Shown here: one piece after another, positions 1,827-64,000 of the stretch
How positions within the stretch are numbered: the stretch's first letter is position 1
Layout: each line of letters starts with the position of its first letter
Assembly: GCA_001566745.1 (NCBI GenBank)
Contig: KQ964570.1
Location: forward strand, 1 to 64,000
Origin: Conidiobolus coronatus NRRL 28638
Taxonomy: Eukaryota; Entomophthoromycota; Entomophthoromycetes; Entomophthorales; Conidiobolaceae
Reading direction: 5' to 3'
DNA length: 64,000 bases
Made by a program: the position numbers and the translations under genes
Notes under the pieces: model-generated
Databases searched by the model: none
Told to the model about the DNA's origin: nothing
The model's input: only the letters and a program-made list of their open reading frames with translations

Positions 1827-4211
1827 TCAGTCTTCTCCCCCATAAAACGACACCCATTGCTCTCTTTTAGTGACTGCCTTGGCGATGGTAGATTCAGCCG
1901 AAATTTTTTTGACATTGAAACGTTGTTGCAGCTTGAATGGTTCCTTCAGATCAGTACATATCCTCTTATTTATCGATGATGATAATATGTATACTTGTTC
2001 GATAAGCATGTCCCTATAAACATTTAAGCCGACACAGTTTTCGACATCCATAAAATATTCGACTTTCTGATTCAGCGTGCATTTGCTTAGTGTATCTAAC
2101 AAATCTTTGGGTACAACTTTATCCTTCTTTATGTTAACTCCTTTAAATCTTTGCTTTACGATTTCATCATTATTATAGAAAATATAGCACTTTGGGGCTA
2201 CCAAAATAGCGTTGTGATTCTTACTCTCGATAGTAAACTTCCCAAACTCATCGCCGATTAAATCGTTGACTACTCCTAAATCCTCAGTTTTTATAAACGC
2301 GCTGTCTGTGTCCATTCCATACACAGATACTTTGGAAATCACAGAGTCATACATGAGTGTCCTAGCATAGCTATAAATTAAAGATCCATAAATAACTGGA
2401 CCGTTAGGACATATCTTGATCTTCTCTCCTTCGCTTATCACATAACTATTACCGAAGTGATACCTGATACTATCGTTATCAACAATTTTCTCGAATTTCG
2501 ATATATCATGTTCGCTAGTCAAAACTTTGCTCACGTTCTTACGCTTCCTCTGAGCGACTTTTCCTGAAAGTGAGTTCATCATTAATTTGCAAAACTCCCT
2601 TAGCACAGGGGTGTACCCGGACGACTCGTTTTCTTTTAGTTTATCTTGCTTCTTCTTCTCGCTTTTTAGGTTATAAAAATATTTATCAAATACTCCCCCT
2701 CGGTCACTCTCCCAATAGTAACCCTCCCCGACAGTAACTTTAACCGAATGTCTCTTTAAGCATTCAATATCGACGCTGTTGAGTACACAATTTATCTCGC
2801 CTAAATTGTGATTCCAATCAAGTGTTTCCCCCCTGAATGGTATTATGTGCTTCTTATCTGGTTGCTTACCGATCTTTACGTTATATACACCGATTTTACC
2901 GTTTTGGTATGAGTCCGTTTTGATTGCTTTTCCTACAGGAAATTTGTTAGCTAACATCACATGCGGGTATAAGCTCACAACATCGATAGCTGATAAATTC
3001 TCGTATTCACCTTTGAATACTTGAGCTCTCCCTCCTATAATACTCTTGCGTATAAAATCATCAATAACGTTGTCTTTTTCAATAGGGAGTTCAAAGTTTT
3101 TGTCAAGAGTTTTTAAAAATGATGAGTATGATAAGGATGCCACAGTTGGGAAATTTTCAATATTTGAATTAGTTAATGTTTTTACAGCTTTTCTACTTTT
3201 AAAGAACACTTCGGATAAAGCTACACAATCCCTGTTTACATATTTGCTTATTTCGTTTAAGTTATTATTTATGAAGTTTTGAAGTTGACCTTTGAACCTC
3301 TGTTCTTGCACATAGTTGTGGTCGAACGACAATTTTGGTAACTTACACCCGAAAGATTTGCAAGCCTTATCCAAGGATGTATTGAGCATTCTGCATAAGT
3401 CCCTTACAGTGAAATTTAAGAATCTAAAAGAAAGTATAGAATTACCCGCTATAACAACATCGTATGGGTCTAAATTACTCCTCACAATTTGCTCCATGAG
3501 AAAGAAGTTGTCAAACTTACTATTATTAAAGCCTATCAAACATGTTTTACGAGTCTTGCGACTCATCTTGATTATTCTGCTGACTATGTTTTCTCTCATA
3601 TCCACGGTAGTGTACTGTTCTTTAATGACTCCGTTTTGGTTGCATCTAATAATACTCCAAGCGTATGGCTCAAGAATCGATGTTTCAGGATTATATGTTG
3701 TTTCCAAATCATAAAACATGAAATCTGTTGTCAACTCGGTGTGTTGATGTAAGTACTCAGTGTTTTCTTCTATGTTGTCGTCTAATGTAGATCTATCTAT
3801 AGTATTTTTAATTACATCGAAGTGATTGTTCTGATACACTATTTGTCTAGAACCTGTACCATAAACTCTTTTAGCTGTGAGCTTAGTAGGGTTAGCATTA
3901 TCTATGATAGATGAATCCATAAAAACACTCACGTTGAAACCGAATAGCTTTTCAATATTTGGCACATCTTTTATAGATAGCATTTCATTAGGATGTTTAC
4001 CCATAAGCTTTCTTATGTTTTTGTTTGAGAACCTTAATATTTTAAAGTGTCTAAAGCATTCTATCAGGCAGTCGTTGTTTTCATTTTTAATATTGACTGT
4101 ACTGAAATTAGATAGCTCAAATTCTTGACTAGAATCGCCACCTACTATTACTCTTGTGATTGTCCAGAATTTTGATAGGTTTAGTGTCATTGAGCATGAC
4201 CTCGTTGCCAT
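1827..4211 (-). CDS. Family B DNA polymerase, protein-primed type (DNA_pol_B_2), virus/linear-plasmid-like
   Basis: The product is about 794 residues from ATG at 4209-4211; an upstream TTG would add 14. Proofreading motifs are FYDLETT (ExoI, about residue 168), IGFNNSKFDNF (ExoII, about 229) and YVNRDCVAL (ExoIII, about 326). Polymerase motifs are DVVSLYPHVM (A, about 410), KLMMNSLSGK (B, about 542) and YGMDTDSAF (C, about 634). The DxxSLYP plus DTDS set and the compact length fit protein-primed polymerases of linear plasmids, Polintons, adintoviruses and virophages, not cellular replicative polymerases. The N-terminal 150 residues contain NNDCLIECFRHF, of unclear function. The ORF is uninterrupted, and all catalytic acidic residues are present. 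No capsid, integrase or terminal repeat was seen nearby, so it may be a single captured gene rather than a whole element. Which group it belongs to needs a phylogeny. Confidence 0.93.
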   Translation of the reverse strand: MATRSCSMTLNLSKFWTITRVIVGGDSSQEFELSNFSTVNIKNENNDCLIECFRHFKILRFSNKNIRKLMGKHPNEMLSIKDVPNIEKLFGFNVSVFMDSSIIDNANPTKLTAKRVYGTGSRQIVYQNNHFDVIKNTIDRSTLDDNIEENTEYLHQHTELTTDFMFYDLETTYNPETSILEPYAWSIIRCNQNGVIKEQYTTVDMRENIVSRIIKMSRKTRKTCLIGFNNSKFDNFFLMEQIVRSNLDPYDVVIAGNSILSFRFLNFTVRDLCRMLNTSLDKACKSFGCKLPKLSFDHNYVQEQRFKGQLQNFINNNLNEISKYVNRDCVALSEVFFKSRKAVKTLTNSNIENFPTVASLSYSSFLKTLDKNFELPIEKDNVIDDFIRKSIIGGRAQVFKGEYENLSAIDVVSLYPHVMLANKFPVGKAIKTDSYQNGKIGVYNVKIGKQPDKKHIIPFRGETLDWNHNLGEINCVLNSVDIECLKRHSVKVTVGEGYYWESDRGGVFDKYFYNLKSEKKKQDKLKENESSGYTPVLREFCKLMMNSLSGKVAQRKRKNVSKVLTSEHDISKFEKIVDNDSIRYHFGNSYVISEGEKIKICPNGPVIYGSLIYSYARTLMYDSVISKVSVYGMDTDSAFIKTEDLGVVNDLIGDEFGKFTIESKNHNAILVAPKCYIFYNNDEIVKQRFKGVNIKKDKVVPKDLLDTLSKCTLNQKVEYFMDVENCVGLNVYRDMLIEQVYILSSSINKRICTDLKEPFKLQQRFNVKKISAESTIAKAVTKREQWVSFYGGED

Positions 4212-4212
4212 A

Positions 4213-4557
4213 CTAATTTTTTTCAATTTTGACTTCTTTATACTTTCTAGCAATTGCAGTCAACTCTTCGGAAATATTGCGGGATTGAGCTTCTCCATTA
4301 GAGCGATTACTATGGCCGTTCATATTAGGACCTGAAGTACGACGGCTAATGCTGAATCTTCTATTCCATGAAAAGAGAGGATCTAAAGAAAATGTATCTG
4401 AGTGCAATGGTCTATAAAACAGGCCAGGCTCCAGAGTATTTCGTAGATGCATCAAAGGTAATGTCAAGTAGAGGGTACTGTTTAATATAAGTTCTACATG
4501 GTGATAATTCTTTCTTAAGGAAGAACAAATGCAGTGGCTATCAATAGAGGTACCCAA
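4213..4557 (-). pseudogene. Possible Ty1/copia reverse transcriptase C-terminal scrap
   Basis: The open frame of 114 codons includes PLMHLRNTLEPGLFYRP. This weakly resembles the copia stretch in which a Leu-Arg-Tyr-Leu helix precedes GLFY, just before the RNase H domain. Nothing else in it fits copia, and no upstream reverse transcriptase motifs were found. It overlaps the extreme 5' end of the polymerase ORF in another frame. It may equally be chance. Confidence 0.2.
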
Positions 4558-5007
4558 GTCAAGGGAACTAAGACCAGATTTATATAATCAGTCAAAGATT
4601 CTATACATTTTGTCTCTGTATCAATAACTATTTAAACATTGTATGTAAATAATGTAATTCAGGTTCAAGTAATGTTAATACTCTTTTTAAGCAGAGTTGT
4701 TAAACCATAAGGTATGTTGATTTGTAATTGGAATTTGTGAATATTGTGTTAGTCTGGCTCAACATGATCAGAAATTATAGTTCAGGGACAAAGGGTTTAG
4801 ATATCATTGTACCATAAAGACCATCGTATTCTACCGAATTCTTATAGATAAAAGTACTACTCTGCCTATAACAACTCTTGAAGTACACAATGTTTCTTTT
4901 ATTAGCTTGGGTTTAAAGTCTTCCTGGAGAGCTATCCATGCTCTACGAACCAAATATCCAGAAACTGAGACTGAGTCTCTCGCTCTAAAATTTCCAGTTG
5001 GTTTAAT

Positions 5008-5067
5008 GTAAGTTGCTTAGTCTTTATCATATATTTAATACAATTATTAATAAAACTTATTAATTAG
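5008..5067 (+). other. Probable spliceosomal intron (GTAAGT...TTAG)
   Basis: A 60-base AT-rich stretch begins GTAAGT and ends TAATTAG. It lies directly before the pterin dehydratase-like exon at 5068, at the point where known genes of that family read into the VYN motif. The length and borders suit a fungal intron. The upstream coding piece does not look like the same gene. Confidence 0.5.
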
Positions 5068-5178
5068 GTTTACAACAGAGTTGAAATCACTTTAGCCACC
5101 CATGAATGCGCAGGTTTATCAAAGAGAGATGTTGACTTGGTTAAATTTATTGAAAATGTTTATAACAATAAGCAATAA
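5068..5178 (+). pseudogene. Pterin-4a-carbinolamine dehydratase, terminal exon only
   Basis: The 36 codons ending in TAA contain [20 protein letters not shown] followed by [10 protein letters not shown]. This closely matches the C-terminus of PCD/DCoH, which dehydrates 4a-hydroxytetrahydrobiopterin. The conserved THECAGLS segment is intact. The upstream part of the enzyme, including the first catalytic His residues and the HPEW motif, is missing. The preceding open stretch (about 4845-5007, ending PVGLM) is unrelated as far as I can tell. This is therefore an orphan 3' exon, probably moved with its intron border. Confidence in the family is high; confidence in function is nil. Confidence 0.75.
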
Positions 5179-5198
5179 TCCCGAATCTATAGCTCAAT

Positions 5199-5650
5199 TC
5201 ATTTTTTCTGTAACTCAGGATTTGATTCAGTAATTGAAATTAAGAGTAGTAAAGTATCGCTTCTTAATCTCTCATTTTGTTCTAATAGTAGTTCCGTCAA
5301 AAAGCCTACTGTATTTGGGTTAGATAAAATTCCAAATTGAACCAAGTGAGGAACATGAGAATACAACTTTGATAGACATTCTAAAGCTGCTTTAGTTTTA
5401 CCAGTAATTAGCCAGCAACAGGGTTTACAATAACAGTAGAAAGCCTTTGACCATTCTGTATTATTTTGAAGGCTGTTAAAAAGCTCAATTGCTTGCTCAT
5501 ATTCACCAAGTAACATTTGACCCAACCCTGATCATAAGAAATTAAATAATCTAATTCCTTCAAAGTGTCTGACTTAGAGTTAAGAGGCTTATCTAAGAGT
5601 TCATTAGCTTCTTGATACTCTGGAGTTTGGTAGCTTGGACGATGAGACAA
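5199..5650 (-). pseudogene. IML2/TTC39-like TPR protein fragment, frameshifted
   Basis: Two minus-strand frames overlap at 5408-5525. The upstream one carries YQTPEYQEANELL. The downstream one carries MLLGEYEQAIELF and NNTEWSKAFYCYCKPCCWL. That order and the W-SKAF-Y pattern are typical of the IML2/TTC39 family, which includes yeast Iml2 (inclusion-body clearance). The full protein is several hundred residues longer, so most of it is absent. A frameshift and the missing ends mark it as a remnant. It abuts the pterin dehydratase exon. Confidence 0.5.
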
Positions 5651-5766
5651 AAATGATACAATTCCAGAGTAATAAGCAGTTGAACTAACGCAGCCATTGG
5701 ACCGTGTAATCCTTCATATACTAGGGATTGCTTTAAGAGCAGTATACAAACAAGAACCCGATCGCT

Positions 5767-5818
5767 TGCTCTACCTCTACAGTTTTCTTTACCTCTACAG
5801 CTTTGTAGAGCTCTACAG
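5767..5818. repeat. Cluster of ctctacag direct and inverted repeats
   Basis: The words ctctacag and ctctac recur four times within about 50 bases, together with the inverted form ctgtagag/tgtagag. The arrangement could form small hairpins. It lies in non-coding, decayed sequence with no gene association. Confidence 0.5.
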
Positions 5819-7376
5819 AACTATTCAGCTCAATAGTTTTTCCTGCTGATAAATCACTTATGCAACTGCGTTGCAGGGGCGTGCTCAACAGTTCTGTAGC
5901 CTTTTAACTCTACTGCTCTGTAGCTTTCTCAGACTCCTTTTCGTCCTCCCCTGCCAAGCCTGAGTCGTTCGATGGGCTTTTTGTCATATTCTGGGTATGT
6001 AGCCGTATCTAAAATCAGGGTCGATCCAATTGTCGTACCATTTCTCCTCTTTAATGTCGTTATCTCTTATAAACCTTTTGACGTTAAAAAGAAGGCATGC
6101 CAATCGAAATTGAATGTCATAAAATTCATTGTCTTTGATGTTGGAGAAAATTTTATCCCAAAAACACTAATCCAATATGTTAAATATGAGGTTGATCTAT
6201 TAAAAGTGAAGGATGTTAGATATAAAATGGTGATATTACCGGAACAGCCCCCAAATTTTCTTCTAAATAAGAACAAACCTGCAATATGCAAGGCCCTAAT
6301 TATTTTGACTTGCTTGACATTACACCGTATATAATTGAATAGAGTTTGTACGACTTAGCTTAACCAAAATCAAATTACGAAAGAGAAGATGAGCCTGATG
6401 AAAAAATTTTCGAAGTTGCCGATATCTTAACCTATGCATCTCAATTCCGTGAAGCCGAATAAGAGCCACTTAACCAACAATTATATAATTAGTGGTTGGC
6501 ACAAAGTAGCTCATACGAGGGTTTATAGAAATAGCGTGTCCATGCTACAATTCACACCTGTTTAGTAACAAGTGTTCATACACACCACCGACTAGTATTA
6601 TGTATGTGCCGTGTGAAAATGAGATAGACCTAATCCAAGTCATGCCAACAACACCCCAGCAATAATGCTTCGACTCTTACTCGCAAGTGGTAATAATAAG
6701 AAGATTTAAGGTTTTTATCTCTAAATCGTTGTTATAGTGTAAAGCTAGCAAGAAAAAGGGACTAACACAGGGGAAGTATCTATTAATGTTGCAATAATCA
6801 AACGTGTCACAACAATGTCTTCACCCCTTATCTGAACCACCCAGCGCTACAACCTCTATTCATGTCGTAACTTGCAAGTTACTCTGTTATCTATAGAGTT
6901 TATAATAAACGCAATTGATAAATGCATGCCCTATAACTTCAGAAAGTTAAAGCAGCAAACAGTCGAGCTATGAGAGACTACTGTGGATGGCTTTTAATTT
7001 ACAGTTAGGCTCGCCAATTTGAATATCTAGCCACACACTACACCGCTTTTTCAAACGAATTCTCTAAAGGGTGTCTAGGGATATATTATTATAATGCAGT
7101 AGCCAGTGACGACACTTTTAATACCAAGCCAAAGAGGCCTAGTAAGAGCCTGTCGCAGGGATAGTAGCGCCAATAGTGCTTGAAGGTATTTTTAAGAATT
7201 CCTCTAAGAAATGGAAGGCTACATGCCCTACAGTGCTTCGCTCCGGCTACTATATGTAGAGCTTTTCATACCCATAAGCTTACAATAATTGTGTTAATGG
7301 TCATGGAGTCTACTTTTCATTAGAGTCTGTCTATTATTAAAAAAAGGTGATGATCCCTTGAGCATAGTGAAATCTA
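5819..7376. other. Gene-free stretch
   Basis: No ORF here looks like protein. A short open piece near 6385-6460 reads EPDEKIFEVADILTYASQFREAE before a stop and could be a gene scrap. The longest ORF (5972-6334, plus) has no recognisable content. No RNA gene was recognised. Confidence 0.4.
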
Positions 7377-12905: not shown

Positions 12906-13118
12906 GAAGAGTAGGAACTTTGCTCTCTGCAACATCAGCACTGTTGATAGGGCTTGAGGCAACATATACAGGTGGCTTGGCGGCGTCATCTAAGCGGTAG
13001 ATTCTATACTTAGCAAGTGCAGAGTGTCTCCAAAAAACTGGAAAAGAAGTAGACGAAATATTCCCGACGGAGTCGTCATTCCAGTTGAAGATAACGAAGT
13101 AGACAGCTTCATCAATTG
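12906..13118 (-). pseudogene. Open coding fragment of unrecognised protein
   Basis: About 71 codons without a stop read as compact protein, including AVYFVIFNWNDDSVGN, SFPVFWRHSALAKYRIYRL and KPPVYVASSP. No start codon is available and the frame ends in stops on both sides. The aromatic-rich pattern looks like an extracellular or beta-rich domain. I cannot name the family. The neighbouring 12566-12905 shows no gene except a 51-codon ORF from about 12630 without recognisable content. Confidence 0.4.
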
Positions 13119-13412
13119 ATTGTGTCTCTCTTTACCCGCATGTTATGTTAAACAGCAAGTTCCCGGTTGGCAGAGCTATTAAACACTGGTGATCTTGAAT
13201 GTTTGAAGACTAACGGAGTAAAGTTTAAGGTCAAACGAGGATACTACTGGGAAGAATTGTTTTTTATTTAAATATTTAGAAGGAATCCAAGCACAATCCC
13301 TCGAGTGCGCTCCGCCCGCATTAGTATGGATTAGGTGCGCTATGGGCGCGTTACCCCAGCTCAAGGACAACGGAGGCATTCAAGAGAAGAGTAAGGTATT
13401 TTTCAATAAATT

Positions 13413-19253: not shown

Positions 19254-19256
19254 ATC

Positions 19257-24571: not shown

Positions 24572-26251
24572 TTATGGTTCAAATTCTCAATTCAGCCCAA
24601 TTTAATTGATTAGGTTTACCCAACCCCGCACTTTCCGCAAGTTTTCCGCAAGAAATACTGTATTTAGCAAGAGTAATTATGAGCACACCAGCAGGATTGA
24701 CTTTTGAACAACTAATAAGGTGCAGTCCAAAGCTAAAATCCACAATTTCCTCACTAGTAAGAAACAATATGCGCCCATTGCACAAGGAATTAGAAGAAAG
24801 TGTAATGAAAAAGGTGAACTACCGTTAATCGCTACTGAAACGGTTACAATAATGCCTAAAGAGAGGAATGTGATAAAAACAGGTATCAGCATCAATTGCT
24901 CAGAAGGATTCAAGCTAGAATTAAAAAATGTTAACACCATTAACAGTCAAATGGGTTTAATTATTCTAGAAACTACGTTATCTGGAGAGTCAGAAGAGGA
25001 AATATTAATTTGGATATTTAATTCATCCAATTCTCCTAAAATGATAGTAGATGGCGATTTATTGGCTAATATAGTATGTAATAGAGTCATATTACCTAAG
25101 ATTGGAATACAAGGTTCTGAAAACCTACCACCTGATTTTAAAAGAAAAAATAATAAGATGGACAAGTTGGAGTTGGATACCGGTATACGAGAACAAGTTA
25201 CCGATACTTGCCCAATACTAGTAATTAAACTAGATGATGTAAGTTTAGCAGCATTTTTGGATGGTGGTTGTAGCAAAAACATCATTGACTACTCATTAGT
25301 CCAAAGCTTAGGCTGGAGTGACAGGATCACAGAAAATAATACACGATTTGGCGTTGTAGGAGGAACAACTTCTAATGCAATTGGTATTATTCCCAACATG
25401 AAGATAAANNNNNNNNNNNNNNNNNNNNNNNNNNNNNNNNNNNNNNNNNNNNNNNNNNNNNNNNNNNNNNNNNNNNNNNNNNNNNNNNNNNNNNNNNNNN
25501 NNNNNNNNNNNNNNNNNNNNNNNNNNNNNNNNNNNNNNNNNNNNNNNNNNNNNNNNNNNNNNNNNNNNNNNNNNNNNNNNNNNNNNNNNNNNNNNNNNNN
25601 NNNNNNNNNNNNNNNNNNNNNNNNNNNNNNNNNNNNNNNNNNNNNNNNNNNNNNNNNNNNNNNNNNNNNNNNNNNNNNNNNNNNNNNNNNNNNNNNNNNN
25701 NNNNNNNNNNNNNNNNNNNNNNNNNNNNNNNNNNNNNNNNNNNNNNNNNNNNNNNNNNNNNNNNNNNNNNNNNNNNNNNNNNNNNNNNNNNNNNNNNNNN
25801 NNNNNNNNNNNNNNNCACGGGTGCAGTTGAAATTATTCAAGAAAATGAGTTGGATTCTGATGAAACCAAAACTTTAAACGTAGACAAAAACCTAAAAATA
25901 CAGAATGTTGAAGAATTACTTGAGAATCTCCCAGGAATTGTATGTAAAAGTTTTAAAGACTTAAGAGGAACTTTAACTACCAAGCATAAAATAATCTTAA
26001 AAGATAAAAATGCTAAACCTATTAAACATAAAGTATCCAGGGTTCCTATAGCATTAAACAACTGGTTGAAAGAGGAATTAGAAAACTTGGAAAGAAGTGG
26101 GATAATTAGTAAAACAGACTCACCTTGGTCCTTTAGAGTAGTACTAGTTCCTAAACCAAATGGTAAAACAAGAATGTGTATTGATTTTAGAGATCTAAAT
26201 GAGCTAACTATTTACAATACTCAGCCCCAGAAACCCAGGTGCTTGGGATAA
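24572..26251 (+). mobile_element. Ty3/gypsy-type retroelement: dUTPase-like, retropepsin and reverse transcriptase pieces
   Basis: The first frame (about 24572-24830) has LTFEQLIRCSPKLKSTIS. After a frameshift near 24720-24830 the main ORF reads ERNVIKTGISINCSEGFKLE, IWIFNSSNSPKMIVDGDLLA and NIVCNRV, which follow dUTPase motifs. A retropepsin core follows (VSLAAFLDGGCSKNIIDYSL, with DGG for the usual DTG/DSG). After the N gap comes the start of the reverse transcriptase: LENLERSGIISKTDSPW, VVLVPKPNGKTRMCIDFRDL and NELT. It ends at 26251 before the catalytic YxDD. No long terminal repeats were found. The element is truncated and frameshifted. Confidence 0.8.
25409..25815. other. Assembly gap, 407 N
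   Basis: An unbroken run of N lies inside the retroelement, between the protease and reverse transcriptase segments. Any ORF crossing it is not evidence of coding continuity. Confidence 1.
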
Positions 26252-47874: not shown

Positions 47875-47884
47875 TATCCACTAG

Positions 47885-48277: not shown

Positions 48278-49522
48278 TTAGCTAAATGTACCCTGCTTGG
48301 CTGCCATAAACGGAGACTTTTTATAGACATGCCAGTTGAAATTCTTATAGTGTTTTTTAAAATTCTTCAAGTCAGATTCAAATTTGCCATTTTTAATAGA
48401 TTCCCTTATTTGTGATAAGAATCTAATATAGTTGTGTAAATTGTGACAGGTTAGTAGAACTGTTGATAGCATTTCGCTTGTATTTAACAGGTGAACTATA
48501 TATGCTTTTGAGAATTTGGATTTGCAAGTGTAACACTGACATTTTTCATTGATAGTCTCAACATCTTCTGAAAAATCGGTTTCCTCAGGATTTAGGCTAA
48601 CTATAGGCTGTAAAAAAGTTCCGTGTGGCTGGAATTCTAAATTTAAAGCATTGCCGTAATTGGCAACCTGAGTAGCATAGGATGAGTCGAAAACGTCTAC
48701 CCCACGAACTATGCCTTCTAACAACTCTTCTGGGGTGTTCATTTCAAAACAGAAATTCGGCTTGTCGCGGTATTCAGGTGTTAAAGACTCTAAACTTTGT
48801 GAAATCTGCTCTCCTTTCTGAGACGGGGTTCCATGGAGCGATGAAATTAAATAGCCTTTAATGTGTTTTTGATGCTCTTTTAACATTTCACTAGCTCTTT
48901 TACGCTCTGCGTAGTATATTGAGCCACCTAGTACACCAAGCAAATTGCTGCCTTTAAGGTCTGATTCTAGCAATTCGTTTAACCAATTGATATTTCTTCT
49001 AACTGACTTGTTAGCTCTCTTTTCTGAAGGTATCTTCGTAGTGGAGCATAAAAGATCATGTAAAGGTATTACTATGTCGGGCTTCCAATTATTAATGATT
49101 TCATTGTACTCATCAGCGCCTACTCTAAGTTTTCCCTGGTGTGCAGATAGGGAAACACCAGTGTTGTTAGTATTTAAATCTTCGTCCGCATTTTTAATTA
49201 ATTTGTTATCATTTAAATCGACTAACAATAAAGGGCTTTTAGAGTTAATAGCTTCACCTAATCCAGATTTTAAAGTTTCTTTGTAGTATTTTTTATCAAA
49301 ATAATCTTCTAAGTGGATTAAAACGCCAAGGTTAGGTTCCTTAGCTCTAGTAAGCAAGTTGTCCTCCAGCTTTTTAATAAGATGAGGCACTAAACCACCG
49401 TTCTTAGTGTATAAAATACAGTTTGGCGTATTTATTTTTTCATTTTTTGACAGCAGCTCTCCCAAGCGGAATTTAAAACTACTCTCTTTAATTAAATTAT
49501 ATTTAAATTGAATAGTTGCCAT
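48278..49522 (-). CDS. Queuine tRNA-ribosyltransferase accessory subunit 2 (QTRT2-like)
   Basis: The product is 414 residues from ATG, the usual QTRT2 length. Family signatures are the Gly-rich barrel strand LLGVLGGSIYYAERKRASEM, GVDVFDSSYATQVANYGNAL near residue 275, and the zinc site CQCYTCKSKFSKAYIVHLLN, then LLTCHNLHNYIRF (three Cys plus His). QTRT2 pairs with the catalytic subunit QTRT1 to insert queuine at G34 of tRNAs with GUN anticodons, often at the mitochondrial surface. The first of a run of minus-strand genes up to 54212, it is separated from the TPR gene by 79 bp. It is intact and intronless. Queuine must be salvaged, so this implies an external or symbiont source. Confidence 0.9.
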   Translation of the reverse strand: MATIQFKYNLIKESSFKFRLGELLSKNEKINTPNCILYTKNGGLVPHLIKKLEDNLLTRAKEPNLGVLIHLEDYFDKKYYKETLKSGLGEAINSKSPLLLVDLNDNKLIKNADEDLNTNNTGVSLSAHQGKLRVGADEYNEIINNWKPDIVIPLHDLLCSTTKIPSEKRANKSVRRNINWLNELLESDLKGSNLLGVLGGSIYYAERKRASEMLKEHQKHIKGYLISSLHGTPSQKGEQISQSLESLTPEYRDKPNFCFEMNTPEELLEGIVRGVDVFDSSYATQVANYGNALNLEFQPHGTFLQPIVSLNPEETDFSEDVETINEKCQCYTCKSKFSKAYIVHLLNTSEMLSTVLLTCHNLHNYIRFLSQIRESIKNGKFESDLKNFKKHYKNFNWHVYKKSPFMAAKQGTFS

Positions 49523-49601: not shown

Positions 49602-50090
49602 TTAATTTTTAGCGTCTTTTGATGTTGAGAGTAAGCAATCGGATGTTAATCTTTTACATAAAATATAGCTCATTGTTAAATTGCCTCTATGATGCCATAA
49701 AACAGCTAAGTTATTTATTACAGGCAAGCTGTTTTTCTTAATTTTTAGACAATGTGAATAGTAGCTCTCTGATTCTATGAATTGGTTTGAATTTTGGTGG
49801 ATGAGTGCTAGGTGGAAATATAGATAGAGTTTTAACTCATTTAATTTGGCCTTGCTCTCCCTTTTAGGGCGTATCTTATTTACCAGTTCAATTAATTTGG
49901 AGTAGTATTGAACTAAGTATTGGTCAGCGGGGTTTCGCTTAAGCTGCTCATTCTGAATTAACTGCTGCACTATTAAGTACATTTGTAAATCTTTATTCTC
50001 CTCAAATAAGTGTTCCAATTCAACGCATCTGGGCGGGTTCACGTCACACTGAGTTGTTAAGAATTTCCCTGTTAATTTTTCGATATTCAT
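49602..50090 (-). CDS. Small TPR-like helical protein, 162 aa
   Basis: Intact ORF from ATG. It is almost all helical, with LKLYLYFHLALIHQNSNQFI, ESESYYSHCLKIKKNSLPVI and NNLAVLWHHRGNLTMSYILC forming tetratricopeptide-like helix pairs in the second half (W/L-G-Y-A-type positions partly kept). It probably acts as an adaptor. It lies between QTRT2 and the plasmid-type helicase, all on the minus strand. I cannot assign a specific family member. Confidence 0.6.
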   Translation of the reverse strand: MNIEKLTGKFLTTQCDVNPPRCVELEHLFEENKDLQMYLIVQQLIQNEQLKRNPADQYLVQYYSKLIELVNKIRPKRESKAKLNELKLYLYFHLALIHQNSNQFIESESYYSHCLKIKKNSLPVINNLAVLWHHRGNLTMSYILCKRLTSDCLLSTSKDAKN

Positions 50091-50203
50091 TTTTATTAAT
50101 ATAGTTAATAATTTTTTTCAATTTCATGATATATAATATTTTAAAGAATACACTTTCTGAACCAAATGGGTTTTACAAATATGCCTCCTTCCCGCCCTAT
50201 AAA

Positions 50204-52069
50204 TTAATGGTGGTATATCACTTTTCCTTGAGATATTAGCGTCTCAACACATTGTCCCATTACAATAATTCTCTTATTGTTTATTTCAATATTTAAGTAT
50301 TTAGCTAAAGGTTTTATTTCAGACCACAGCATCGTATTAATATCTTTACCTCTGGTACGTTTTCTCAAATCTTTTTTGTCATGGCTTATACATACATACC
50401 TTTTTTTTCTATCCGTGTGACTTATCAATACATAATGGCCCGGGTTTAAATTCCTGAGTCTTGACTTGAAATGTTCTCTTATTCGGGCTTCATCTTCTTG
50501 GTACCAATCCCAAATGTTATCTTCTCTATACCTAGTTCTACCAACACACTTATAGCTTCCAGAAGATACGTTGTAGTTGTTGTTACTCTCTACAGAATAG
50601 TATAATACATGTGCGACCGGGCTGTGTGAAGGGGCGTAGAACAGTCCTCGGTTGAGTCGACCACTAATATTTACGACTATTGACTCATAGACGCCCGGGT
50701 TATCTATTTGTTCTATGTAGGCTATTCTATCTCTAAGCTCCATATCTATAAGTTTGGATTCATCTATTAGAGTGTTATCTTTTATGCGGCGTTGAGAAAA
50801 CGGCATAGGCATACTATTGAGGTTACACTCTATAGTACCAACGTTCTTGTAGATAGAGTAGTCTTTTATCTGCCCATTGATATCTATATAGTTGTACTCG
50901 TCTACTTGTACTTCTTTGTATTTGCGTTTGGATATATTCAGTTTAATTTCATCTATGCTATCTTTTATCATGTATATGAAAATTTCAATTGTACAACCAG
51001 GGATATGTGAATCTATTCGTATTGCCCTACCAATGACTTGATCAAGCAAGCTATAGTTCCAATGCAAAGTGAGTATATGTACCTGCTTGACATTTTTCAG
51101 CGATATCGACTCACTTATAATCTTACTACCTATAAGTACATTGTAAACAGAGCCATCGATATTTGCAGGGTCATTGAACTCCTCAACCACTGACTCGCAG
51201 TGAGATATTTCTCCAGTACATACAGCTATCTTGATGCCGGGCATTACAGCCTCTAGTATTTTTACAACGCTTTGTATGCCGTTTTCCTTTATATATTCGC
51301 AATATATATAAGCTGGGTACTGGATGTTTTTAAGCATTGTGTATATTTTTATCGCATATGTTTGCAACATATTCATATTTACCTCTGACAAATTCATAGT
51401 TGACAACTTGGATCTGAGTGTTTTTGATACAAGGGTTTCATATACCTTTTCACACCTTATGCTAGTATCTGGAACGCTTAAATAATCTCTTTTCTGTTCT
51501 GCACTCATGTCCAGCGGCACGACAGGATATTTATAGCCAAGATCTTCTCCTCTGTAAATAACCTTTACATTGTACTCATTATTTGTATATTTGAGGATGT
51601 TTTTTTGGGGTAATAGTTCCATAATATCATAGAACTCTTCTACCTTATCTATGTATTTAGTAGCCGTTAAAAATAAGACAACTCCCTTATGGATCTTTAT
51701 TTTATTATATAGTTTATTTATCTTTCTAACGTGATGTACCTCGTCATAGATAAATATATATTTGTAATCTGGATCGAGTTTAAGACTATCTACTTTGAAA
51801 ATAGTTGTATACTTCATCTTCAACTTCTTGTTGTACCTTCTGTTATACGCATCTACTTGCTTTTTAAAGTTAGCATTTGTTATATCATTTTTACCCACGA
51901 TGATTGGAAATTCATAGTAGCCATATAGATTGCTGCTGAGAAACGACTCGCAAATAGATATAGCAGTAAAACTTTTACCAGCTCCAGTACTGAATAATAA
52001 CAACGCTGACCTGTTGTTACTATCCGGGCTAATAAAATTTTTTGCAAATTCCTGATGGTGTAGTAGCAT
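50204..52069 (-). CDS. Superfamily 2 helicase/ATPase, D6/NPH-I-like, as in linear plasmids and large DNA viruses
   Basis: The product is 621 residues from ATG. Motif I is STGAGKS (residues 27-33), motif II IYDEVHH (107-113), motif III LTAT (134-137) and motif VI QVIGRAIRID (344-353). QxIGRxIR is the form seen in poxvirus D6/NPH-I relatives, asfarvirus D1133L and the ORF4 helicase of yeast cytoplasmic linear plasmids. In those systems the enzyme works with a dedicated RNA polymerase in transcription. The C-terminal 220 residues are unique in my reading. All motifs are intact and there is no stop. It is inserted between the TPR gene (114 bp away) and the RING gene (81 bp away), both fungal. Base composition is close to the neighbours. 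Either it was captured and kept, or it is a recent insertion. Confidence 0.9.
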   Translation of the reverse strand: MLLHHQEFAKNFISPDSNNRSALLLFSTGAGKSFTAISICESFLSSNLYGYYEFPIIVGKNDITNANFKKQVDAYNRRYNKKLKMKYTTIFKVDSLKLDPDYKYIFIYDEVHHVRKINKLYNKIKIHKGVVLFLTATKYIDKVEEFYDIMELLPQKNILKYTNNEYNVKVIYRGEDLGYKYPVVPLDMSAEQKRDYLSVPDTSIRCEKVYETLVSKTLRSKLSTMNLSEVNMNMLQTYAIKIYTMLKNIQYPAYIYCEYIKENGIQSVVKILEAVMPGIKIAVCTGEISHCESVVEEFNDPANIDGSVYNVLIGSKIISESISLKNVKQVHILTLHWNYSLLDQVIGRAIRIDSHIPGCTIEIFIYMIKDSIDEIKLNISKRKYKEVQVDEYNYIDINGQIKDYSIYKNVGTIECNLNSMPMPFSQRRIKDNTLIDESKLIDMELRDRIAYIEQIDNPGVYESIVVNISGRLNRGLFYAPSHSPVAHVLYYSVESNNNYNVSSGSYKCVGRTRYREDNIWDWYQEDEARIREHFKSRLRNLNPGHYVLISHTDRKKRYVCISHDKKDLRKRTRGKDINTMLWSEIKPLAKYLNIEINNKRIIVMGQCVETLISQGKVIYHH

Positions 52070-52149: not shown

Positions 52150-52944
52150 TTATTCGTAACATTGACTATATTTTATTAAAAGATCAAACTTAAACTTACC
52201 ATATCCAGATATAATAAAACAAGCTAATTCATAAATAAATTGCGCCGTGTATTGCTTTAGCCAATTATTTAAGCAACCCTTCAAAGCTAAATAGCTAAAA
52301 TTGTTAAATATTATATCCATTATTGTTTCCTGAATTACTACGTCAAGCTCTAACCGGTTTTCTTGGATGGTTGTTAAATAAAAATCAGCTTTAAGTAAGT
52401 AGAATATGCCGCAAATTTCTCTAAGTATCCACTCTTTTAAGCTTGATGAACTTACCGGTACTATTAGTTGTTTTAAGCTTGGAATAGTCTCTACAAGTTC
52501 TAAATACTCATCTTTTCCAGTGTTTGGGTTGAACTGAGGGAGCCAAATATCAAGCTTTGAAAGCAAATTTTCAGTCAAAAGGGGGACCCAGTGAAACTGG
52601 TAGATGTTGGATCTGTCCACCCATGATTTAGTTGATAATTGATTAAAATGCTGCAAATATGACCTCGAAGAAATAACAATTTCGGGTCGTACGCTAAGCA
52701 ACTGGACCATGCCGCACTTTTTAAGTAAGCCAGTTTGAATATTAAAATCATAAACTAAATGCAACGGGGTGCACTTGCAAAGTGGGCAGCATAACTCACC
52801 TGTCTTCGACTGGATCTGGAACCACCCGCGAATACAAATGAAGCAATACGAATGATAGCAGGGTGCTAAGTAAGACTTATTTACAAAATTATTCAGACAA
52901 ACACTACATCTAGCTATGCCTCCAAGGAGATGGCTTTCAACCAT
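52150..52944 (-). CDS. RING-finger protein, Topors-like E3 ligase
   Basis: The product is 264 residues from ATG. A C3HC4 RING sits at the N-terminus: ARCSVCLNNFVNKSYLAPCY, HSYCFICIRGWF, CCPLCK. The spacing and the trailing LHLVYDF resemble Topors/ICP0-type RINGs. The following helical region (about 80-264) includes WLPQFNPNTGKDEYLELVET and LKEWILREICGIFYLLKADF, which match the helical extension found after the RING in fungal Topors-like proteins. It is predicted to act as a ubiquitin (possibly SUMO) ligase in the nucleus. Neighbours are the helicase (81 bp downstream) and the Kaptin-like gene (68 bp upstream), co-directional. Confidence 0.8.
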   Translation of the reverse strand: MVESHLLGGIARCSVCLNNFVNKSYLAPCYHSYCFICIRGWFQIQSKTGELCCPLCKCTPLHLVYDFNIQTGLLKKCGMVQLLSVRPEIVISSRSYLQHFNQLSTKSWVDRSNIYQFHWVPLLTENLLSKLDIWLPQFNPNTGKDEYLELVETIPSLKQLIVPVSSSSLKEWILREICGIFYLLKADFYLTTIQENRLELDVVIQETIMDIIFNNFSYLALKGCLNNWLKQYTAQFIYELACFIISGYGKFKFDLLIKYSQCYE

Positions 52945-53012
52945 TATCGTTTATTTTTGTTTTATTTAAATTAAAAAACAATTAATTGAAAGCAATATTA
53001 TTTTAACATGCT

Positions 53013-54212
53013 TCAAGCTAGATCCCGTTTAAACTTCTGCAACTTCAGTTGAACTGAAGACCTCAAACTCTTTATTATTTGTAGGTCATTAAAACCTACG
53101 ATGATTAACTCAAAAAGCCCATCTTTGTCGATATCCCTTTTTATTATTTGGTAGCCCTGAGTTAGTAATGGTTGACTGTAAGTTAGTAGCAACCCTAATT
53201 GATTATTTGGCAATAATACCAAATCAAACATTAACATTTGTTTTGAATAAGTAGTTATCAATAATTGGTAATTTCCGCATAATTCCAAATCTACAACAAT
53301 AGTTGCTAAAATTGGGTCATAATTTGACACTTTAGGAATTTGTAGGTATTGGGGGTTTGTTATAGTGTAATCCTTGAAGTATATTATTTGACCTAAAGCA
53401 TTGGCTATTAATATTCCTCCCAAACCTTCGAATTCGTTCAAGTTTTGGACGCTTGTTATTGGAGAGGTGAGTGCCCATTGAAAGGTTTTTGTAAGGTGTT
53501 CATCCTTAAGGTTTATAATGGTAGTTACTACACCATCCTCTGTACCCACTATCCACCCCGTATTCCCTTGAGCATCGGAGTAGTTCATAATTGATAACAA
53601 TTTATTGGGTAATAAATTCCAAAATATATCTATCGGGGCAGTTTCCTCAGTATTAAATTCTGACCATTCATTTGTTTTGTGATCTTTAAATAGAATTAAA
53701 TTTTGACCTTTTGAAAAACTTAATAACAACCAATTAAAATTCTTTTGAGAGTTGAATCGCTTATCAAATAGAATTTTTAAAGGTGCCCTATCCAAGGGTA
53801 TTGAGTGAGTAATTTTAATATTTTCCTGCTCCTTTATTAAGTTAAGTTGACCAAATTGGAGATTAAAACAATTTTCCATGTTGTTAAAAGTAGTGAGTAT
53901 CAAATAAATTAAATCGTCATCATTTTTTTCTGAATAATAAATTAGATTAATAATTTCTAGCTGGTTATTTAACCTAAACTTCTTTACTTGCCAGGATTGA
54001 CTTTTTGAGTCATACTTGGGGTAAAAGACCCCCTTTGATAGTGTTAGTATTGCGGGTAAACTAGAGTTTTGTTCTTGCCCAAAACTTAATGTGGGAGTCG
54101 CCAATATGCTACCTCTTCCAATATCTGAAAGCTGTTCAAAGTGGCAGACTTCAAACGGAACACTGTCGGGTTGACTTGAGATGGCAGTCTGAAATTTTTT
54201 GGGTTGGGTCAT
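53013..54212 (-). CDS. Kaptin/ITFG2-like beta-propeller protein (KICSTOR component)
   Basis: The product is 399 residues from ATG. Repeated strands with hydrophobic ends indicate a propeller. TIVVDLELCGNYQLLITTYS, KQMLMFDL and DIDKDGLFELIIVGFNDLQI near the C-terminus are FG-GAP-like blades with Asp-rich loops, as in KPTN and ITFG2. Kaptin is the better fit because of the Q-x-L-L-x-x-T-Y...M-x-x-F-D/Y order. In animals these belong to KICSTOR, which holds GATOR1 on lysosomes and restrains TORC1 under starvation; budding yeast lacks it. The ORF is intact. It is divergent from COG8, with 151 bp between the starts, a probable shared promoter. Confidence 0.65.
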   Translation of the reverse strand: MTQPKKFQTAISSQPDSVPFEVCHFEQLSDIGRGSILATPTLSFGQEQNSSLPAILTLSKGVFYPKYDSKSQSWQVKKFRLNNQLEIINLIYYSEKNDDDLIYLILTTFNNMENCFNLQFGQLNLIKEQENIKITHSIPLDRAPLKILFDKRFNSQKNFNWLLLSFSKGQNLILFKDHKTNEWSEFNTEETAPIDIFWNLLPNKLLSIMNYSDAQGNTGWIVGTEDGVVTTIINLKDEHLTKTFQWALTSPITSVQNLNEFEGLGGILIANALGQIIYFKDYTITNPQYLQIPKVSNYDPILATIVVDLELCGNYQLLITTYSKQMLMFDLVLLPNNQLGLLLTYSQPLLTQGYQIIKRDIDKDGLFELIIVGFNDLQIIKSLRSSVQLKLQKFKRDLA

Positions 54213-60404: not shown

Positions 60405-60815
60405 TTAAGAATGTTCTTCATTGCTATATAATTCTGTGTAGAATTTCTTGATATTCTCAGCTATCTCGGTTTGATCTTTAATAGAAAACCATTTATCTAA
60501 TTCTAAGTCTAAGATATTGTTGGGGGTTTGCTGGCTATGTCTGATCCTTCTTCTTTCACTATGTATTTTTTCGCATTCGTATTTTATGTGGCCTAGCTCT
60601 TTGCACATAAAACATCTTACTGGTGCGTTCTTAGGGTTTACATAAGTAATCATATTCCCAAAATCAATCTCTCTAGGGATAATGATGACTGAAACTCTGT
60701 TTAGCGGCTACAGGTTCTCCAAAGTGTTCGTACTCACTAACTATGAATTCAGTGAATTGCATTCCTGTCATGTTGATCTTGATATAATTTGCTCTTAAGA
60801 CAATAAACACTTGCC
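60405..60815 (-). mobile_element. LINE remnant: ORF1 RRM/zinc-knuckle joined to ORF2 linker
   Basis: Upstream minus-strand codons (about 60660-60815) read YIKINMTGMQFTEFIVSEYE, then HFGEPVAAKQSF, consistent with the single-strand-binding RRM-like part of LINE ORF1. After stops the 60405-60653 ORF has NPKNAPVRCFMCKELGHIKY, then EC, a CCHC zinc knuckle. It runs on directly into EIAENIKKFYTELYSNEE, the linker that precedes reverse transcriptase in LINE ORF2. Joining ORF1 to ORF2 in this way implies an internal deletion. It ends before any polymerase motif. Confidence 0.6.
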
Positions 60816-61047
60816 ACGACACACAGGAGCATTAACTGTAATACAAGCCGATCCAGGAAAAGATGTTTGATTGTGGAGGGCTCTATGGTTTAACACTACT
60901 GATTCTATACTTTAGCTTTTGCATTTGTTTAAACAGATTTAGTCTAGTTCTTCAGTACTAATAAAAAATTTTTACTTTCAAGGTTTAAAGCTATTTTTAA
61001 CACATCAGTAAAATTTGAGATAGTAGCTGGCGGAGATGATTTCTTTA
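60816..61047. other. 3' flank of the RNA polymerase gene
   Basis: No gene. The sequence is AT-rich downstream of the RNA polymerase stop codon. No terminator-like structure was recognised. Confidence 0.4.
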
Positions 61048-64000
61048 TTACTCTAGGAACTTTACAAGTTTTCTCAGGGCATAGCCGGTTTCTTGTATCC
61101 TAAGCACTTTGCTAATGACTTGGTCTCTGCCACTCATACATTGCAAAAAGAATTCGTCATCTGTTGTACCAGCTATATAGCTACTGGCAATGTTTATCAA
61201 AAGCTTGTCGTTCAAATATAAAGCACCGATAGTTTGGCTCATCTGTTTTACATTTACTGCAGAACCCTTTATTCTATGTTTTACAATAATATGTTCTTCA
61301 TCCTCGCATTCCCTTAGACCAAATGTAAGGCCAATCTTAAATGTCAGATCATGCAAAGAACAGTTGAGTATAGCAGCAACTCTTTCATCCAGAATCGCTC
61401 CAAGTAGTTCCGGGCACACCTTGGATGGCAACATCGCTTCATACTTACCTGTCGTAATCCTAAATACATTCATCTCATCCCCGTCAAAATCCGCATTATA
61501 TGCTTTGCACAACTTTGGGTTCATAGATATAGTTAGAAGATTGCTTGTTTTCATCTTTACAGCCATTACAGATGTTTTAGATAATGTCGGGTGTCTTATA
61601 AATAGGCAGATGTTGTGATTAAAGTTGTCCAAGAACGATTGTGGCACTTGTATTGTGTCTACGTCTAGGTTTGGATTTGGTATAATGACAGATCTTCCGC
61701 AGTAGCTCGAATTTTTACCCATCAGTATATTTCTTATAAAACCTTCTTTAGCATTTATCTTTGTTCTAAGCTTTTTGAGTATATCCTCAAATAATTGCTC
61801 GTCGTACTTAGTTATGAGTTTGTTGTACAGGCCAGAGAGATCACCTAACCCGTAAGAAGTGTAGAACATATCCGAGGCTCTTATGTAATTCGGCGGTACT
61901 ACTATGTATTTGCAAAAATAGGGGAATTCTTTGCTAAATTCAGGATGAAAATAAGACTTGTGTATAATACCGCAATGGCCCCTACAAGTAGATGCGGGGC
62001 AAATGGAACACTTAATGTTGTTGGAAGAGCCCATACAACTATCAAAAGCAGTAGCAATTCTAAACTTGTTCACATCGAACATTTTCTCAATAGTCTCATC
62101 ATCTAAAACGCTTACACAAGCTTTGCCACCTTTGAATTCCAGATTGATGTGTAAAGCATACAGCAGATACTGGAATGACCTGAAGCTCTCTGGAACTGCG
62201 CGCAGATCCCTCTGATCGCTATCTAGGCCAAATTTTTCTTGTATAATTTCCCACGCATTGTGGGCTACAAGGCAGTCTTTGTCTAGCTCTCCTAGCCTGA
62301 ATGCCCCGTCGATAGCTTTACCTTTTACAGACTGACCACTGACTCTGTTGAACTTTTTAGTCTCTCCAAGACTATAGCTCTTTTCAATAACTTGATGTCT
62401 TAATAAATGGTAGTATATTGGGCCGCAGAATATCTTGTTCTCAAGGGCATTATCGCCATAATAAAAGGTATTATAGCCGCCTTTAAACATGTTACGCTCG
62501 CTGTACGGGACAACTTCACCAGAAGCAATGTCTAGTCTGTATATTATATCTTTTTCTTTACCCATAGTCATCTCTAAAAGTTGTCCCACGGTCATTCTAC
62601 TAGGTATCGCATGGGGGTTAATAATAATATCAGGATAAACTTTTTGGCCGTCAACCATTGTATAGAACAGATTCTCGGGATCTACTATTTTGCTTATAAC
62701 ACCCTTTTGTCCATGTCTACTTGTAAGTTTGTCACCAACCATCAGCTGCTGTGTTCTTTTTGTATGAATCTTGAAAATTCTATGTTCTATATCGTTACCG
62801 AGAATTTCAACTTTACAAACATTTATATCCCAATCAAAACTGTTTTTTAGATATCTGAGGCCGCCCTCCCAATATGTGGCTATATATTCTTTAGACCTCA
62901 CGATGCCTCTTCTGATGCCATCGTTATCGATGGGTATTACAAACTTTCCAATGCTTTCTTTGAAAACGATAACATCGTATCTAACATTCTCGAACATCCA
63001 TGTGCTGTTTTTATTTATAACTATGGCATCTTCCATGTTGTAGCCGAGATAACTGGCTATGGCACAGTTCACCATAAGGCCATTTATGGGTAGCTGCTCA
63101 CCAAGCGGTGTATTAACATGGGCTTTGCTACCATACTTTAAATACTTTGCATTGTGTTTGGGCGCAGCAAGCTCCATAGCCTGTTTACCCATATTAGCTT
63201 GAAACATTGATCTGGTGGCTTGATTGTGGTTCTTCAACGGGTTGGTCGTAGCACTAAACCCGAAGATGCTTTCGCCCGCTATCAACCTACCTGTCCCAAT
63301 CTCCAATCTGACGTCAAGGGCAAAATGTTTTGTGATTCCAATCTTAGTGCTTTCGGGTGTCTCTACACAGCAGTATACCCCTTTGTGGGATTGGTGGAGC
63401 ATTCTCATGTCGACTGCATATGCATCCTTTCTGGATGGTATACTAACCTTTGTCAGGCAAGACATTGTGTCCTTCAAAGACTTCCTACCAACTGTTTCGC
63501 AAACTCCGTGGTAATCATGTTTGTCTATGGGCCATTTACCAGAAACCATTTTGGATAGCAGAGTATCATAAACCTTTTTCCCCTTTACCAGGTTGCATAT
63601 GGAATATATCAATTCACCGGCTGTATATATTCTTTTGTACTTTAGATCGTTTCTCTCAGCTTCTTCACCAAGCAGCACATCCAGCATTTCGGTGGTGATA
63701 TCATTATTGACTATATCGTTATTGTCAACCGTAGCCAAATCGTTGGATAACAAAAACCTGTCATCGTCTACCTTGATATGCTTATCATCCAGGTACAGTA
63801 GATTGTCGTCGAGGTGTAATATACCGTAGTCTGTCTTGACCACACGTTTTAGCATATATTTCGTCGCACGCTTCACCTCGGGTTTCACCTCGGGTTCCTC
63901 GTCATCTGTCTCCATTTCCATTTTAAAAGGCTCAGGTGGCCAACCCGTTTTAAAAGGCTCTTTTCCCAACTCAAACTTTTTAACCTCTTTCCTCAACACA
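61048..64000 (-). CDS. RPB2-RPB1 fusion RNA polymerase subunit, linear-plasmid type, 5' end outside the window
   Basis: About 984 codons are open to the right edge, so the true N-terminus may be missing. The first half is the second-largest subunit: GVYCCVETPESTKIGITKHF, NCAIASYLGYNMEDAIVINK, GDKLTSRHGQKGVISKI (near 62710) and FRLGELDKDCLVAH. It continues without a break into the largest subunit: zinc clamp IKCSICPASTCRGHCGIIH (near 61990) and metal site NADFDGDEMN (near 61480), whose three Asp are intact though the usual Gln is Glu. It stops after QETGYALRKLVKFLE, where the trigger-loop region begins. A single beta/beta-prime polypeptide ending there matches ORF6 of yeast cytoplasmic linear plasmids, where a separate small subunit (ORF7) provides the rest. 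ORF7 is not in the window. All visible motifs are uninterrupted. Confidence 0.9.
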   Translation of the reverse strand, partial: VLRKEVKKFELGKEPFKTGWPPEPFKMEMETDDEEPEVKPEVKRATKYMLKRVVKTDYGILHLDDNLLYLDDKHIKVDDDRFLLSNDLATVDNNDIVNNDITTEMLDVLLGEEAERNDLKYKRIYTAGELIYSICNLVKGKKVYDTLLSKMVSGKWPIDKHDYHGVCETVGRKSLKDTMSCLTKVSIPSRKDAYAVDMRMLHQSHKGVYCCVETPESTKIGITKHFALDVRLEIGTGRLIAGESIFGFSATTNPLKNHNQATRSMFQANMGKQAMELAAPKHNAKYLKYGSKAHVNTPLGEQLPINGLMVNCAIASYLGYNMEDAIVINKNSTWMFENVRYDVIVFKESIGKFVIPIDNDGIRRGIVRSKEYIATYWEGGLRYLKNSFDWDINVCKVEILGNDIEHRIFKIHTKRTQQLMVGDKLTSRHGQKGVISKIVDPENLFYTMVDGQKVYPDIIINPHAIPSRMTVGQLLEMTMGKEKDIIYRLDIASGEVVPYSERNMFKGGYNTFYYGDNALENKIFCGPIYYHLLRHQVIEKSYSLGETKKFNRVSGQSVKGKAIDGAFRLGELDKDCLVAHNAWEIIQEKFGLDSDQRDLRAVPESFRSFQYLLYALHINLEFKGGKACVSVLDDETIEKMFDVNKFRIATAFDSCMGSSNNIKCSICPASTCRGHCGIIHKSYFHPEFSKEFPYFCKYIVVPPNYIRASDMFYTSYGLGDLSGLYNKLITKYDEQLFEDILKKLRTKINAKEGFIRNILMGKNSSYCGRSVIIPNPNLDVDTIQVPQSFLDNFNHNICLFIRHPTLSKTSVMAVKMKTSNLLTISMNPKLCKAYNADFDGDEMNVFRITTGKYEAMLPSKVCPELLGAILDERVAAILNCSLHDLTFKIGLTFGLRECEDEEHIIVKHRIKGSAVNVKQMSQTIGALYLNDKLLINIASSYIAGTTDDEFFLQCMSGRDQVISKVLRIQETGYALRKLVKFLE

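Follow-up and report, generated by a model that had tools for sequence, protein, structure and literature searches.

Plasmid-type polymerase and helicase genes, including a fused RNA polymerase, probably captured by a chromosome of a fungus likely outside Saccharomycotina

The window analysed here is the first 64,000 bases of C118, a contig of 78,551 bp in an assembly of 17.5 Mb and 186 contigs, and it carries three genes of the kinds that replicate and transcribe the virus-like elements (VLEs), the cytoplasmic linear plasmids of yeasts: a protein-primed-type family B DNA polymerase (PolB), a superfamily 2 helicase of the NPH-I/D6 type, and an RNA polymerase (RNAP) in which RPB2 and RPB1 are fused. 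Pfam matches showed that the three genes claimed in an earlier note on this DNA are real, the RNAP being longer than the note had it and running past the window, and the note's picture of minus-strand genes with fungal genes between them was borne out: all three open reading frames (ORFs) are free of stops and on the minus strand of C118, and at least seven genes between them lie above curated Pfam cut-offs (SulP, UCH, Zn2Cys6, CSC1, TGT, RING and ABC). We consider it likely that these are genes of a VLE-like plasmid captured, at a hot spot or repeatedly, by a fungus probably outside Saccharomycotina, in the manner of nuclear sequences of plasmid and viral origin (NUPAVs). Chance matches are excluded by the low E-values and by copies of the RNAP and the helicase in the protein collection that are near-identical and not identical, with 11 and 4 amino-acid differences; these changes are too few to judge selection. 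The host is taken to be a fungus, and probably not a member of Saccharomycotina, on a coarse basis, namely two strong chitin synthase loci in the assembly (E 5.7e-263 and 6.3e-219) and the order in which the host Pol I large-subunit ORF on contig C80 scored against PDB entries (7aoc_A, 1111 bits; 4c2m_A, 970; 7vba_A, 761), which we take to be from S. pombe, S. cerevisiae and human. The flagellar marker PF04712 matched nothing in the assembly, a result that carries no information on the host. NUPAVs themselves are already known; the new element is an unbroken fused RNAP in a fungus probably outside Saccharomycetales, the order to which passages of PMC10328495 state that the known VLE-type plasmids are confined, and searches of the open literature, which mostly did not cover subscription papers, listed no VLE-type RNAP from any organism other than a budding yeast.

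A single RNAP ORF encodes Rpb2 domains 3, 6 and 7, followed by Rpb1 domain 2 and by positions 1-40 of Rpb1 domain 5; Rpb2 domains 3 and 6 and Rpb1 domain 2 score above curated cut-offs, and Rpb2_7 and Rpb1_5 below them. The start is an ATG at contig position 64290 (1080 aa) or a TTG at 64305 (1085 aa). When aligned to yeast RPB2, the beta part forms three blocks with long stretches absent between them. The beta-prime part, aligned with host and viral RPB1s, keeps the NADFDGD active site and the bridge and trigger helices and ends at the trigger-loop helix; it lacks about 129 clamp residues, and a gap of about 224 opens from the active site to the bridge helix, these counts being taken against a partial host Pol I ORF and the region names (rim helices, clamp, a16) being placed from the alignment by way of PMC6211774. 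An RPB1 part that stops before region a16 and has lost both the rim helices and the greater part of the clamp is the layout of a VLE enzyme. For ORF6 of the yeast plasmid pGKL2, passages of PMC6211774 (2018) describe a beta/beta-prime fusion unknown in other RNAPs, which has no rim helices and little of the clamp, the rest of the C-terminus being in ORF7. By its fusion and truncation the window RNAP is of VLE type in layout. A zinc-binding-like Cys/His motif is retained at the start of its RPB1 part, as judged by eye on the alignment.

The RNAP gene is single in the assembly; the remaining matches, on C80, C93 and C96, are host RNAP genes, that on C80 being Pol I. In a quick tree of the beta part it sits on a branch of length 3.6, joined with P0004 and P0034. 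Derivation from a duplicate of host RPB2/RPB1 was considered and rejected, because the gene is fused and its long branch lies far from both host RPB2 loci. Some viral RPB1s score slightly higher against the beta-prime part than host Pol I does (71 versus 61 bits), a difference too weak to be used, and the beta-prime tree joins long branches. The representative of the RNAP cluster in the protein collection is 99% identical to the window protein, and the cluster has four members, the longest contig among them being 91,259 bp. Upstream, a Yip1-domain gene lies 84 bp away, and an ABC-protein gene follows 2.4 kb downstream. Between the RNAP and the ABC-protein gene, an ORF at 60405-60653 gives a weak zinc-knuckle match (E 0.0036); this ORF and another at about 4022-5883 of locus L010 look by eye like what we presume to be LINE retrotransposon remains.

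If it acts in the nucleus, an RNAP truncated in this way would need a small subunit. The earlier note had proposed a search of the assembly for ORF7 homologues, and this yielded a frame-broken candidate: a search with Rpb1 domain 5 found a piece at C138:44030-44200, below cut-off, with similarity continuing in the next frame to 43.8 kb, and found no intact Rpb1-C small subunit in the assembly. As separate queries, the two pieces gave weak matches, to archaeal A'' at E 5.5e-6 and to Pol III at E 6.5e-5; they are unlike host Pol I, with scores per residue far below those of the host's own Pol I, and nothing else in the assembly matches the 77-aa piece. The region C138:43.8-44.2 kb is a candidate for a broken ORF7-type gene, although it might conceivably be an exon of a divergent host Pol II or III.

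The helicase is unbroken, and at E 0.01 it has just two sequence matches in the PDB, NPH-I (E 8.3e-8) and VETFS (E 4.3e-7), which is the NPH-I/D6-like similarity seen in VLE helicases. As a query of the assembly it returned only itself. Its cluster in the protein collection has four members, with a 99%-identical representative on a 5070-bp contig. The gene sits within a compact row of five minus-strand ORFs, separated by 80 bp from the RING gene and by 113 bp from the ORF with weak TPR matches, and the neighbouring spacers measure 68 and 79 bp. At 621 aa the helicase, together with the RNAP (1080 aa) and P0122 (1011 aa), a close relative of the window PolB, fits the VLE gene table, which gives 586, 987 and 998 aa for helicase, RNAP and PolB in the part of PMC8472843 consulted. 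The spacer downstream of the helicase (50109-50124) and the spacer upstream of PolB (4214-4229) have a string of 16 bases in common (minus strand), which the rest of the contig does not contain.

The PolB ORF matches PF03175 (E 1.7e-40). Its closest relatives, both 79% identical, are P0122 (1011 aa, on an 8455-bp contig) and P0123 (1000 aa, on a 3373-bp contig), followed by a group at 43-46% (P0124-P0131, on contigs of 2.6-12.3 kb) and then by Coemansia proteins at 34-37%; in a quick tree the sampled relatives, all but P0131 and P0165, form with a few more a group of 21 with SH-aLRT support of 100. The earlier note called all three genes intact, and this holds for the unbroken RNAP and helicase, whereas PolB lacks an N-terminal region that is present in 47 of its 50 other matches. 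Similarity to the relatives begins at 4193, corresponding to P0122 residue 237. All 33 aligned relatives carry 99-409 residues upstream of that point, and by BLAST 14 of the 17 unaligned ones carry about 98 residues or more, the exceptions, P0131, P0163 and P0170, being short predictions of 506-696 aa. The first 236 residues of P0122 have no match anywhere in the assembly. The lost region would be the terminal protein (TP), by analogy with the TP-vOTU-EXO-PALM order and invariant vOTU Cys and His that sections of PMC11071308 give for polinton and cytoplasmic plasmid polymerases, so that the window PolB would be without the TP fusion that is typical of VLEs. In the PolB alignment, the segment that runs from the N-terminal region to the exonuclease contains a single invariant Cys and a single invariant His, and polymerase residues are invariant too; we infer that this Cys and His are the vOTU pair and that the vOTU-like, exonuclease and polymerase regions are kept. 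Changes at conserved columns are within the range of the relatives (1 of 60 strict and 2 of 97 near-strict columns), and the terminal branch is 0.066, against 0.098 and 0.097 for P0122 and P0123; because conserved columns are kept as in relatives and the end branch is short, the rest of the protein is not decayed. The PolB cluster in the protein collection has one member, and a search of PLSDB returned three distant Bacillus plasmids only.

The earlier note also placed the genes outside any visible element, which does not hold for PolB. It lies in a plasmid-derived stretch, with same-direction ORFs downstream and scraps upstream (Table 1). The two overlapping ORFs next to it downstream are apparently one gene, interrupted by a frameshift or by an error in sequencing. 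The stretch is at the end of the contig, with other genes on one side only; a subtelomeric location is therefore possible, and no telomere repeat was seen by eye at the contig end.

Table 1. Positions in the window of the plasmid-type genes, associated scraps and the neighbours of the helicase
Feature	Position	Strand	Basis or remark
73-aa ORF	299-520	-	Membership of the plasmid stretch suggested by position and strand only
Probable second plasmid gene, two overlapping ORFs (1401-1769 and 638-1447)	638-1769	-	Downstream of PolB; no Pfam family
Protein-primed-type family B DNA polymerase, N-truncated	1827-4211 (stop-free ORF to 4253)	-	PF03175, relatives
Weak scrap like the 638-1447 ORF	6005-6163	-	34% over 53 aa; E 0.001 (small set), E 0.014 (whole genome); may be chance
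Scrap of a same-family DNA polymerase, two frames	13082-13319	+	Matched by 21 of 48 relatives as queries, best 42 bits
TGT gene	48278-49522	-	Host gene on one side of helicase; Pfam
ORF with weak TPR matches	49602-50090	-	Host gene on the same side of helicase
NPH-I/D6-type superfamily 2 helicase, 621 aa, unbroken	50204-52069	-	Helicase_C, ResIII, PDB matches
RING protein	52150-52944	-	Other side of helicase; Pfam
ORF without Pfam family	53013-54212	-	Other side of helicase, past the RING gene
RPB2-RPB1 fusion RNAP large subunit	61048-64000, on to contig 64290	-	Pfam, RPB2/RPB1 alignments

A nuclear setting is indicated by the fungal genes around the helicase and the RNAP and by the 91,259-bp contig in the RNAP cluster, which is too long for a VLE. 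Further, broken copies lie on other contigs of the assembly, which supports chromosomal capture. On C138, a broken PolB at 54.1-55.1 kb (L007:4151-5063) has pieces on both strands within 1 kb, a pattern that fits a rearranged insert or an amplification chimera, and a weak helicase-like Walker-A scrap lies near 58.5 kb (best E 2e-5), so that PolB, RPB1-C and helicase kinds of scrap occur within about 15 kb. C131 carries frame-broken PolB scraps and C185 a weak PF03175 match below cut-off; beyond these and the window, no further PolB loci were found in the assembly. Taken together, the RNAP fusion and truncation, the NPH-I and VETFS matches of the helicase, and a PolB family whose members come mostly from short contigs and from Coemansia uphold the assignment to a VLE-type core set, and the surrounding fungal genes and the broken copies uphold the claim of capture by a nuclear chromosome.

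Among the genes between the three, SulP is a sulfate permease with STAS and cNMP domains, and the others include a UCH-domain ORF, a Zn2Cys6/Fungal_trans regulator and a CSC1-type channel. At 25001-26000 GC falls to 0.193 (1-kb stretch), overlapping a 385-aa ORF at 24720-25877 (+), and C118:71714-71830 is a 39-residue chitin synthase scrap. A recurring family of 270-310 aa proteins is found near captured plasmid genes on both C118 (C118:73407-74258, which is L006:3407-4258) and C138 (L007:2987-3919 and 5758-6585); by eye its members have what we take to be a PD-(D/E)XK-nuclease-like look.

Several observations weigh against the capture of VLE-like genes or set these genes apart from yeast VLEs. 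Positions 1-6500 yielded no terminal inverted repeats of convincing quality, although the element may be cut off by the contig end. Of the 846 matches of the RNAP, the best 120 include no close relative outside the RNAP's own cluster, the other 119 of these scoring at most 177 bits and covering Rpb2 domains only. The position of the RNAP in the tree is that of a long branch flagged as unreliable, and it was not used because the program warns of long-branch attraction; the kinship of the RNAP with VLEs rests on architecture, yeast VLE proteins having been compared by description only. The A+T content is 64% in PolB, 65% in the helicase and 60% in the RNAP, below the more than 75% typical of VLEs. 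Codon usage also differs among the three genes, which need not come from a single element: relative to 12 host genes of the contig (z from -3.6 to 2.2), the RNAP lies outside at -6.5, and PolB (-2.9) and the helicase (-3.0) lie inside. The VLE promoter box, the upstream conserved sequence (UCS) ATNTGA, does not occur in the 80 nt that precede each of the genes, and within 150 nt it occurs before one of the three, 114 nt before PolB, which is chance level (0.24 expected per 150 nt). The capping enzyme, also on the earlier note's list for searching, gave no PF01331 match in the whole assembly, a point that is weakened by the fact that the host's own enzyme is likewise unmatched. The assembly may be incomplete, because PF01331 gave none and the divergent RNAP query gave just two cellular RPB2-type loci; introns can hide genes. 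A poxvirus-early-like promoter motif, its consensus being the one we presume, was also tried; it is exact 19 nt before the PolB ATG and has one mismatch before the helicase, and it was left unused, an exact copy also being present at a host gene of the RNase HII family.

The capture of VLE-like plasmid genes could have proceeded as follows. By inference from yeast VLEs, the free plasmid would start replication from a protein primer with a TP-vOTU-EXO-PALM PolB, and would be transcribed in the cytoplasm by the fused RPB2-RPB1 protein, a small RPB1-C subunit, the NPH-I/D6 helicase and a capping enzyme. Pieces of it would then have joined the chromosome, most likely during break repair, as passages of PMC5499181 state for mitochondrial inserts discussed beside NUPAVs, and at a favoured region rather than at random sites. 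The PolB piece looks young, with conserved residues kept and a terminal branch shorter than those of its closest relatives. Because its N-terminal priming region is lost, nuclear PolB should not itself start protein-primed replication, and might extend a primer. The RNAP and the helicase may have entered as near-single-gene pieces and remain unbroken; in the nucleus they most probably lie idle or decay slowly, and if expressed, the captured genes, without a small subunit and a primer domain, could do no more than hinder or aid a plasmid resident in the cell.

The earlier note left repeated capture, a broken-up element and domestication as options. Three random captures fit poorly: had each best copy landed at random, the probability of finding the second and third on the same contig as the first would be about (78.5 kb / 17.5 Mb) squared, or about 2e-5, and somewhat higher if the broken PolB copies are counted. 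Because all best copies are on one 78.5-kb contig of 17.5 Mb, entry at a preferred region, or one insertion that later broke up, is the more probable course. That a single integrated VLE-like genome was broken up over 62 kb by insertion and rearrangement of host DNA is possible, though we hold it unlikely; the location of all three best copies on one contig and one strand, and the three kinds of scrap close together on C138, speak for it, whereas the Pfam-matched genes between, the compact five-ORF row around the helicase, the lack of terminal repeats and the unequal codon usage speak against it.

It is doubtful, though still to be entertained, that the RNAP and the helicase are kept by selection as domesticated host genes, for example as counterfeit parts that poison a related plasmid. 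Their ORFs are unbroken with catalytic motifs, and each belongs to a four-member cluster with a 99%-identical representative, against one member for PolB, the window copies being possibly among the four. The helicase spacers resemble those of the surrounding genes, and with an A+T content of 60-65% the genes stay clear of the barrier to expression that passages of PMC4431711 describe for yeast; the composition of the RNAP and the helicase should not forbid nuclear expression. There is also a precedent, in sections of PMC6166632, in a totivirus gene captured by Debaryomyces, whose expression in S. cerevisiae cures that yeast of a related virus by negative complementation. However, RNAP codon usage is still foreign, and the candidate partner small subunit was found just as a broken piece. 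A further version is a long shot: a VLE-type plasmid with a fused RNAP would live outside Saccharomycotina, and the RNAP, the helicase and the primer-less PolB would be nuclear counterfeits that jam their parent plasmid, giving inherited immunity by negative complementation.

An assembly chimera, with plasmid contigs misjoined to the chromosome, is improbable; in its favour, PolB and its plasmid-type neighbours occupy the extreme end of the contig, and the pieces of the C138 copy are spread over both strands like those of amplification chimeras, but other genes flank the helicase closely on both sides and the RNAP by 84 bp (Yip1) and 2.4 kb (ABC), and the 91-kb contig of the RNAP cluster is longer than C118 and hence a different contig. 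An endogenous giant virus or Polinton/adintovirus is very improbable: nucleocytoviruses also have NPH-I/D6 helicases and RPB genes, and Polintons a protein-primed PolB (parts of PMC11071308), but scanning IMG/VR with the RNAP returned 16 loci, and wherever their RPB1 and RPB2 were seen the two were unfused (none of 15 RPB1-motif ORFs on 16 viral contigs matched the RPB2 profile, and the sole RPB2, on L029, is a separate ORF), single PolB and helicase proteins found no relative in IMG/VR and the PolB alignment two distant loci at 22%, and at E 0.01 none of the 26 window ORFs of at least 150 aa matched a family of capsid proteins, packaging ATPases or integrases.

The capture of VLE-like plasmid genes points to plasmids of this kind in fungi other than budding yeasts, with some of their genes left behind in the DNA of the host. 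VLEs have a poxvirus-like transcription system of their own; a fused RNAP of their layout in a host that probably does not belong to the budding yeasts would extend the VLE host range and would bear on the relation between VLEs and poxviruses. Like yeast VLEs of the pGKL2 type, the window genes include a fused RNAP ending at the trigger-loop helix and an NPH-I/D6-type helicase, with similar protein sizes, and a PolB whose family has an N-terminal region before vOTU-EXO-PALM, in the relatives and not in the window copy. Unlike yeast VLEs, they are chromosomal, PolB lacks that region, A+T is 60-65% rather than above 75%, no UCS box lies near the starts, a zinc-binding-like Cys/His motif is kept in the RNAP, and the host is probably outside Saccharomycotina. 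The PolBs of Coemansia and of the short contigs belong to the same group as the window PolB, which has lost the region found in 47 of 50 matches. Fungal endogenous nucleocytoviruses share the NPH-I/D6 helicase and RPB-type genes; in the viral contigs seen RPB1 and RPB2 are separate and longer, and no hallmark gene of giant viruses was found in the window. Passages of PMC5499181 report plasmid or RNA virus traces in 40% of 20 Saccharomycotina genomes, and parts of PMC4431711 describe immunity genes as the largest group of VLE-derived captures, in various stages of decay and with high A+T. According to passages of PMC4431711 and PMC8472843, yeast VLEs exceed 75% A+T and their captured genes are cut at internal poly(A) sites, the copies being silenced by extreme A+T. 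Like known NUPAVs, the genes described here are plasmid genes in nuclear chromosomes, with several stages of decay in one genome; unlike them, they include two long unbroken transcription genes of host-like composition, and this composition, with the long open frames, makes the expression, retention and anti-plasmid use of captured genes directly testable.

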